The notes under the pieces were generated by a model. It saw only the letters and a program-made list of their open reading frames with translations. It searched no databases and was not told the DNA's origin. The position numbers were made by a program, and so were the translations under genes. This document shows positions 48,174-49,222 of a stretch of 54,428 bases of DNA, piece after piece. Position 1 is the stretch's first letter. Every line of letters begins with the position of its first letter. The stretch lies in the NCBI GenBank assembly GCA_030619925.1, contig JAUXAL010000019.1, positions 1-54,428 on the forward strand. Direction: 5' to 3'. Source of the stretch: Phycisphaerae bacterium. GTDB lineage: Bacteria; Planctomycetota; Phycisphaerae; Sedimentisphaerales; Anaerobacaceae.

Positions 48174-49091
48174 TCAAGGGTACCAGTCGGGGTCGCCGAG
48201 CGGTGGCACCTCCAAATTTTCTGGCCAATCTGATTTCCATACCGAGGCTTTCCATTCCACGTGGTAGTCGCAGTAGAGAACCAAGCCGCCTAATGAGTCA
48301 CCTGATTTGGCGTGGCGGGCGCTAAACGCCTTAGGGTAGCTGCCGCAATATTTTCCCGCCGTGGGATTATATTTCTTGCCGCCGTAACCCTTTTTAGGGT
48401 CGAGCAGCTGATCGAAGAGAAGGATTAGACGAGCGGGATTGCTTATGGATGTTGTTTTCAAAAAGCTGGGCATATGCCAGTTTGCACCTTTGTGTCCATA
48501 AGGCGGCCAGCAGTTTTCGTCAAGTTCGAGGCACGAGTTCATAGCATAAGAAAAATAACCGCTCCTTCTCGGCCTGTATTTGTAACTCTTGTCCGTCGCA
48601 AGCCTGGCGGAGGGGCACTGAAATATAGTATTTATGCCGGGGCGTTGCCAATAATCGTGTTCACGCCAGGGTTTTTCTCCCATCAGCGGTGGAAGCACAT
48701 CGACCCAGCCGAAATAATAGTCTGCTCGCTCGGGGTCTGTTTGCGGATTACTTGGCGTGCGGTCGCGGCCGTCAATATGAGGGTAAAAACCATCGTTTTG
48801 TCCGGCATAGATATCAAAGGCCAATCCCCACTGTCGTAATTTACTTTGGCAAACTGTTTGTTTAGCTATAGACCTGGCCCGGCTCAGTGCCGGCAAAACA
48901 AGACCAATCAGCAAAGCTATCACAGAGATAACGACCAGCAGCTCGACAAGGCTAACCCCGTTAGAAATTTTCCCCAAGCGTAAAGCATAACTCAAATTTT
49001 GTATGATGTTATCCTGTCTTACAGAATTTCTAACGGGGCTAAAGGCCGAACCGAGAGCAGACCGAGATGTAACCTTCACCGTTTTGTTCAT
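48174..49091 (-). CDS. Type II pseudopilin with an element inserted in its leader
   Basis: A 305-residue pseudopilin. The helix VSLVELLVVISVIALLIGLV starts at residue 46, far later than normal. Residues 19-47 are encoded by an inserted 83-bp palindrome plus a 4-bp duplication. Without those 29 codons the protein would read SALGSAFSLVELL, a normal prepilin site with Ala at -1 and Phe at +1. With the insert the site reads ISNG-VSLVE, Gly at -1, still cleavable. After the helix come SRARSIAKQTVCQSKLRQWG and a long extracellular domain, as in the pseudopilin at 11402. The start codon overlaps the stop of a decayed upstream frame. Confidence 0.85.
   Translation of the reverse strand: MNKTVKVTSRSALGSAFSPVRNSVRQDNIIQNLSYALRLGKISNGVSLVELLVVISVIALLIGLVLPALSRARSIAKQTVCQSKLRQWGLAFDIYAGQNDGFYPHIDGRDRTPSNPQTDPERADYYFGWVDVLPPLMGEKPWREHDYWQRPGINTIFQCPSARLATDKSYKYRPRRSGYFSYAMNSCLELDENCWPPYGHKGANWHMPSFLKTTSISNPARLILLFDQLLDPKKGYGGKKYNPTAGKYCGSYPKAFSARHAKSGDSLGGLVLYCDYHVEWKASVWKSDWPENLEVPPLGDPDWYP
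48952..49042. mobile_element. REP-like palindromic insertion with 4-bp direct repeats
   Basis: CCCCGTTAGAAATT (48956-48969) and its exact reverse complement AATTTCTAACGGGG (49025-49038) bound an 83-base element. CTAA flanks it on both sides (48952-48955 and 49039-49042), the mark of a target duplication. Removing element plus one CTAA deletes 87 bases, exactly 29 codons, and restores a standard prepilin motif in the host gene. The end GGGGCTAA resembles the tail GGGGCTAAACAT of the repeats at 12309 and 30065. Confidence 0.9.
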
Positions 49092-49222
49092 TTTAGAAGT
49101 TCTTTAATATGTTTTTCATAGGCCTTTTCTACTGCTTTTTCGATATCGCCGCGGAATCTCGTGTAAGCTTTAACCCATTTTCTACCTTCGCTGGTTAGAG
49201 CAGCAGCGCTGTGCGGTTATGC
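49090..49222 (-). pseudogene. Decayed 3' end of a gene, possibly a winged-helix regulator
   Basis: On the minus strand an open frame without start codon follows a stop near 49222 and reads ALTSEGRKWVKAYTRF and further charged helical residues to a TGA that overlaps the ATG of the pseudopilin gene (ATGA). The LTSEGRKWVKAYTRF pattern is like the end of a LysR/ModE-type winged-helix DNA-binding domain. A ModE relative would fit the molybdenum genes nearby, but the match is by eye only. The rest of the gap to 49384 shows nothing. Confidence 0.4.

Follow-up and report, generated by a model that had tools for sequence, protein, structure and literature searches.

The window is a stretch of 54,428 nucleotides from a Phycisphaerae bacterium (contig JAUXAL010000019.1), and on its minus strand an open reading frame for a pseudopilin-like protein carries a short palindromic element within the predicted leader. 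The features of the locus are:

48174..49091, minus strand: host open reading frame, pseudopilin-like, 305 aa, with a class III (prepilin-type) N-terminus (a GspG match below the cut-off and 13 close relatives).
48957..49091, minus strand: predicted leader of 45 residues ending in ...KISNG, 16 residues without the insert (translation; cleavage inferred).
48956..48957, minus strand: predicted prepilin peptidase cut between Gly(-1) and Val(+1), with Glu at +5 (inferred from the Gly-1/Glu5 rule).
48956..49038, minus strand: palindromic MITE-like element, 83 bp (inverted ends, duplication, fold and family membership).
48956..48969, no strand assigned: terminal inverted repeat CCCCGTTAGAAATT, matching the other end at 14 of 14 positions.
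49025..49038, no strand assigned: terminal inverted repeat AATTTCTAACGGGG, matching the other end at 14 of 14 positions.
48952..48955, no strand assigned: target duplication CTAA (YNNR), first copy, read from the sequence.
49039..49042, no strand assigned: target duplication CTAA, second copy, read from the sequence.

The initial annotation had described an element of 83 bp with perfect inverted ends of 14 bp and CTAA repeats that adds 29 codons, and all of this is found in the window: element and duplication together (83 + 4 = 87 bp) add 29 codons to the pseudopilin leader. The open reading frame starts with MNKTVKVTSRSALGSAF, runs through the inserted codons and then enters SLVELLVVISVIALLIGL, a typical prepilin helix; across the leader the translation is MNKTVKVTSRSALGSAF-SPVRNSVRQDNIIQNLSYALRLGKISNGV-SLVELLVV. 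As single-stranded DNA, positions 48945-49050 fold far more stably than shuffled sequences (z -4.5; 0 of 200 shuffles). An Rfam match to the CRISPR repeat CRISPR-DR54 within the element (48998-49034) scored 21 bits against a cut-off of 39, with E-values of 0.39 for a 2-kb query and 0.024 for 121 bases, and is taken as probably due to chance.

A Pfam search with the host protein gave no match, and the NCBIfam GspG model matched it with an E-value of 2.6e-8, under its curated cut-off, which places it only weakly near GspG; for the protein that the initial annotation had named a pseudopilin, pseudopilin-like is therefore the safe name. The class III signal, as given in the excerpt of PMC4471445, requires Gly at -1, Glu at 5 and a leader of 6-26 aa. 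Gly-1, Glu5 and the hydrophobic stretch are present in the window protein (NG/VSLVELLVVISVIALLIGL), and its leader exceeds this range with the insert (45 aa) and falls within it without (16 aa).

The mature protein was used as a query, and 14 matches, the window included, stand apart from the paralogues; the other 13 are close orthologues (62-85% identity) in other genomes of the host family. The initial annotation had proposed a comparison with orthologues and would have been refuted by a long leader in all of them; the leader is without the element in 12 of the 13. The remaining one (L166, genome G010) carries a separate insert, read in the other frame, GF[APLE...SLTG]FTLVEML. In the nearest orthologue, L154 (85% identity), the empty site reads MSKTAKSASDSAFSLIELL, the DNA aligns through it and the start codon of the host frame is conserved. 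Judged from these alignments, the window insertion is precise and lineage-specific. The insert-free site would be A/FSLVE, with the Ala at -1 that is common to several orthologues, and the claim that excision restores a textbook Gly-1 site thus fails; the companion claim, that Gly-1 and Glu+5 are recreated by the end of the element, agrees with the window, which reads SNG/VSLVE. Ahead of the start codon (49092-49110) the window has AAGAA where L154 has AGGAG, and the ribosome-binding site may be weakened.

A BLAST search of the window's genome with the whole element returned only the element itself, but a family is visible through its ends (CCCCGTTAGAA...TTCTAACGGGG), since the cores are very diverse. 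The other refuting condition of the initial annotation, a palindrome found nowhere else in the genome, does not hold either, as the ends recur throughout it: CCCCGTTAGAAATT is matched 133 times at up to 2 mismatches, while the reversed pattern used as a control is matched 30 times. Exact paired ends are also present, with zero in the controls, and exact pairs of one length range were found in 12 of 61 genomes (its own and relatives), with a maximum of 34 per genome. A scan of 84,980 genomes, one per species, found at least 115 stretches, and among the 80 matches listed the records are labelled Phycisphaerae, other Planctomycetota, Omnitrophota, many Patescibacteria groups, Syntrophaceae, Deltaproteobacteria, Nitrospirota, Nitrospinota, Elusimicrobia and Riflebacteria. 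These labels come from metagenome bins, and some may be incorrect: a cluster of pilins in the Riflebacteria record L258 has a close counterpart in the Omnitrophota-labelled L356 (78% identity).

The main set consists of 156 elements defined by exact 11-bp ends and chosen regardless of duplication. A perfect 4-bp duplication flanks 99 of them, compared with 40 of 8576 in a shifted-flank control, and identity of the flanks over 3, 5 or 6 bases was seen in only 3, 3 and 0 of the 156, respectively. Each of the 99 perfect duplications has a pyrimidine first and a purine last (YNNR). An earlier count of 72 of 102 had used element borders chosen partly by the duplication, and the count from the 156 elements is used instead. 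A larger set of 179 elements combines 103 earlier ones with 76 of 81 further ones, 5 identical in sequence having been dropped. The fixed 4-bp duplication is the mark that a transposase leaves when it makes a staggered cut of 4 bp, and it indicates present or past movement of the family with duplication of a 4-bp YNNR target. With terminal inverted repeats, a duplication of fixed length, short size, many copies and no transposase, the family has the traits of a MITE and is, on its sequence features, one of non-autonomous, MITE-like transposable elements. The sharing of the ends across records labelled as many phyla suggests a widely travelling transposition system.

An exact duplication of 4 bp would suggest a transposase of the DDE type. 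Four matches to Y1_Tnp in the window's genome were barely above the cut-off and were set aside given this duplication. PF13701 (IS1380-type) was chosen as a candidate on our assumption that its CC ends and short duplications suit the family; it matched at 14 loci in 6 of 10 genomes, and end pairs were found at 0 of the 14 loci, with isolated 2-mismatch matches at 3. Long end pairs with matching duplications, 0.3-6 kb apart, were found in eight cases, and the six that were read by eye enclose ordinary host genes and nothing transposase-like. Also by eye, 11 candidates from a looser search gave ordinary host genes with nothing transposase-like, and no transposase was seen at ten unpaired-end loci in the window's own genome.

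The ends of the element contain a stop in one frame and leave two frames open, which give either PVR...SNG or PLE...LTG. With a 4-bp duplication, an insertion keeps the reading frame only if the length of the element is 2 mod 3, as it is in 125 of the 156 exact-end elements. All 35 elements with both flanks open over 90 codons or more have this length (the best flank frames join in 31 and fail to join in 4), whereas only 12 of the 23 elements with no open reading frame of at least 50 codons touching either edge have such a length (Fisher p 6e-6). These lengths indicate that frame selection acts on the copies inside genes. By place, 86 of the 179 elements lie in no open reading frame of 130 codons and 46 are internal; the rest are at most 45 codons from an edge of the frame, 38 from its start and 9 from its end.

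Diverged insertions share the same site in three records of a SelD-like gene (L062, L099, L229) and in two genomes of a LipA-like gene (L106, L121), both names being presumed from the look of the sequences, and such common-site copies suggest that some are old and long tolerated. Longer copies at L029, L015 and L060 look like elements nested in elements, and those at L149 and L151 seem to have an additional insert of about 72 bp, with the frame still kept. At L024 (about 1437-1514) the reading frame of a dxs-like gene can begin at an ATG within the element, ISNGVD stands in frame ahead of an ABC ATPase-like gene at L061 (near 1579), and in several AT-rich copies a G-rich stretch and an ATG lie close to the right end, so that some may supply a translation start. 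Copies at L014, L029, L045, L066, L286, L287 and L290 stand immediately before or after seeming Tat, lipoprotein or Sec signal peptides, and there may be a preference for cleaved N-termini in general.

Among the hosts of the first 57 elements in open reading frames, six were pilin leaders. A right-junction pattern, the element end followed by F-T-L-x-E, gave 38 cases in 12 of 90 host-family genomes and 15 cases in 10 of 50 genomes selected for carrying the ends, with 0 for the reversed-pattern controls in both; a stricter pattern had 7 matches in 4 of the 90 genomes and the looser one was used for the counts. The records that led to the ten positive genomes of the second group carry the labels Omnitrophota (5), Patescibacteria (2), Riflebacteria, Thermodesulfovibrionales and Planctomycetota. 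The suggestion of the initial annotation that such elements could enter prepilin leaders selectively, through an end that rebuilds the site, fits these 38 and 15 junctions. Only 11 of the 156 exact-end elements, the window included, are at prepilin leaders; since most copies lie elsewhere, the element counts as a generalist that has in the leader a favoured refuge, one home among others.

Besides the window's own, 53 distinct pilin open reading frames with the junction were read, in records labelled as five phyla. The hosts include types that we take, by their look, to be GspG-like (L209), GspI/PilV-like (L150), GspJ-like (L191) and a common planctomycete type. A left end is recognisable in 50 of the 53, and all 50 copies are free of stops through the element in the frame used; 49 are of length 2 mod 3, the exception being L344 (55 bp), in which the leader is read in another frame. 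The duplication is perfect in 42 of the 50 (36 TTTA and 6 TTCA). Leader copies are 35-146 bp long with differing cores, and leaders measured from the first Met in 46 other cases, where the true starts are uncertain, are 19-75 aa long (median 32), in many cases longer than the 6-26 aa of the class III signal. Adjacent pilin genes of one cluster may each hold a copy (L195, L247, L348, L355), and in L258 and L356 two different elements stand in tandem within one pilin leader. The window's own genome has at least two further pilins with leader elements, L054 (G000:C53) and L022 (G000:C3), the latter decayed and compound, and L054_3 (...PVRRKLSSEAG/FTLIELL), which was labelled uninserted throughout, may be a decayed insert.

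The usual junction converts GF/TLIE into GF[TPLE...LTG]FTLIE, in which Gly-1 and Glu+5 are rebuilt. The duplicated TTTA or TTCA consists of the codon for Phe(+1) and the base that opens the Thr(+2) codon. Insertion there yields this arrangement, and the right end of the element supplies a new Gly(-1) ahead of an untouched mature pilin. As the ends mirror each other, either orientation should rebuild the site. The PLE frame is open in all 49 leader copies of regular length, the other permitted frame in 15 of the 49. The window insertion is a variant one base off: its duplication on the coding strand is TTAG instead of TTTA, the frame is PVR...SNG and Val replaces Phe at +1 (SNG/VSLVE), and among the leader copies read it alone ends in SNG (1 of 52). 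Of the 48 pilins with a left-end-like leader, 46 have Gly and 2 have Ala at residue -1, compared with Gly in 52, Ala in 24 and Ser in 1 of the 77 pilins labelled uninserted, which include at least two decayed inserts. The conservation of Gly-1 is partly built in because the junction patterns demand an intact right end, and the count by left ends answers this bias only partly, many of its loci having been fetched via the right end.

The host prepilin peptidase would then cut at the rebuilt site, and with such a cut the translated insert would be lost with the leader and the mature protein would be the same, with a change in the window at +1 only. Peptidase_A24 was matched in 20 of the 23 genomes with such junctions or pilins, the three without a match being 74-86% complete; in the window's genome there is one partial match (model positions 41-103 of 104, E 8.4e-6). 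It is probably the cell's own peptidase that trims the element off. Prepilin leaders would thus offer the element a refuge where selection hardly sees it, and this would account for its independent accumulation in several phyla.

Such accumulation could instead be apparent, if element-bearing pilin genes were duplicated or gene-converted without repeated transposition. Pilins form large paralogous families, one 53-bp subfamily (TPLEIKIPNR...RFLTG) accounts for many leader copies, and eight groups bring together inserted pilins that share 45% identity or more over at least 110 aa. By the same threshold, however, the 52 inserted pilins of our sample, the window included, are spread over 38 groups, and an uninserted relative is far nearer than the inserted ones in cases such as L208 (92%), L001 (84%) and L209 (79%); cores, lengths (35-146 bp), pilin types and phyla all differ as well. 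A quick tree built from 129 pilins requires at least 34 changes of insert state, as a raw count, and 11 independent pairs are separated by supported branches; relabelling L022 and L356 as decayed inserts had moved the changes from 33 to 34 and the supported pairs from 12 to 11. We regard duplication or conversion as an improbable account of the leader copies, and the similar 53-bp copies may in part reflect movement between paralogous pilins by recombination.

The concentration at leaders could also be a matter of pure target preference, the transposase favouring TTTA or TTCA and the GF-T codons of pilins offering it, with selection merely keeping the frame. TTTA and TAAA are indeed the commonest duplications (24 and 21 of the 179), outside genes too, and target choice contributes to the leader excess, with 39 of the 156 exact-end elements having TTTA or TAAA duplications. 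Yet 9 of these 39, and 9 of the 45 in the larger set, are at prepilin sites, when a 4-Mb genome would have about 35,000 such sites (from a window density of 8.7 per kb) and about 10-115 pilin candidates; the binomial probability of 9 in 45 at 100 in 35,000, a rough estimate, is 1e-14. The mature pilin region, by comparison, holds 0 of the 156 and 0 of the 179 elements, the larger set having 12 at leaders, and the other copies in genes are at many other YNNR sites. Target preference as the whole explanation is therefore unlikely.

If the long leader were useful to the host, for regulation, as a chaperone or in supplying a start codon, the element could have been domesticated. Prepilin leaders tend to be basic, 47 of the 50 leader copies are net positive, and some AT-rich copies lie at gene starts with a start codon near the right end. 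Domestication is nevertheless very unlikely: the insert is absent from 12 of the 13 orthologues, the cores are unconserved, and the unused frame, where open (15 copies), is equally basic (0.149 vs 0.116 net charge per residue). Bypassed inserts are known in other systems, and the palindromic ends are precise enough for splicing, bypass or excision ahead of translation to be conceived, but the kept frame, stop-free in all 50 left-ended leader copies, would then be needless, and this explanation is hardly credible.

We therefore favour, with a probability of about 0.8, the reading that the family is a generalist protein-coding MITE, similar in behaviour to the Rickettsia palindromic elements, and that it persists in prepilin leaders since the host peptidase would remove the insert. 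A further proposal, which we consider tentative and slightly short of an even chance, is that the erasure of the translated product by a host protease makes leaders a renewable safe harbour that aids spread across phyla. One frame of the ends would encode both halves of the site (FT-PLE at the left, LTG-FT at the right), and each landing at GF/T would break and rebuild it, leaving the mature pilin intact and recreating the target, as in the tandem copies of L258 and L356. Such a harbour would be the protein-level counterpart of hiding in an intron.

By the description in the excerpt of PMC10969869, the Rickettsia palindromic elements are small and palindromic, and a good share of them sit in frame within protein genes unrelated to each other and are translated. 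The same in-frame coding insertion is seen here, and the likeness, compared by description, is one of behaviour: those elements are about 150 bp long and from Rickettsia (PMC10969869), whereas the present family is mostly 30-146 bp, occurs in several phyla and has a 4-bp YNNR duplication, very diverse cores and a recurrent, exact prepilin-site target. Bacterial MITEs such as QMITE of Coxiella have terminal inverted repeats, direct repeats and some in-frame fusions with open reading frames, but they are mostly intergenic and the excerpt of PMC5896051 names no prepilin hot spot, where the present family recurs. The short palindromic ends and many copies also recall the REP/REPIN elements moved by RAYT. 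REP/RAYT elements are not known to make a target duplication, and the present family, with its 4-bp duplication, is for this reason not of that kind. A search of the open-access PMC literature found no description of the element family or of prepilin-leader insertions, and the papers listed there as matching the end sequences as text were, judged by title, on other matters.

Transposons in needed genes are usually spliced out, as introns or inteins, or tolerated as extra loops. Inteins are removed at the protein level and leave the mature protein unharmed, but they self-splice; the present elements are without self-splicing and would be cut off by the host peptidase, only as the insert sits in the leader, and the analogy is functional only. 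If this is true, the maturation protease of the host does the erasing and the element needs no machinery of its own, which yields a testable rule on where coding insertions persist. The element would also be a source of unusually long prepilin leaders, which can confuse annotation, and its copies would form a natural experiment on the amount of additional leader that the prepilin peptidase tolerates.
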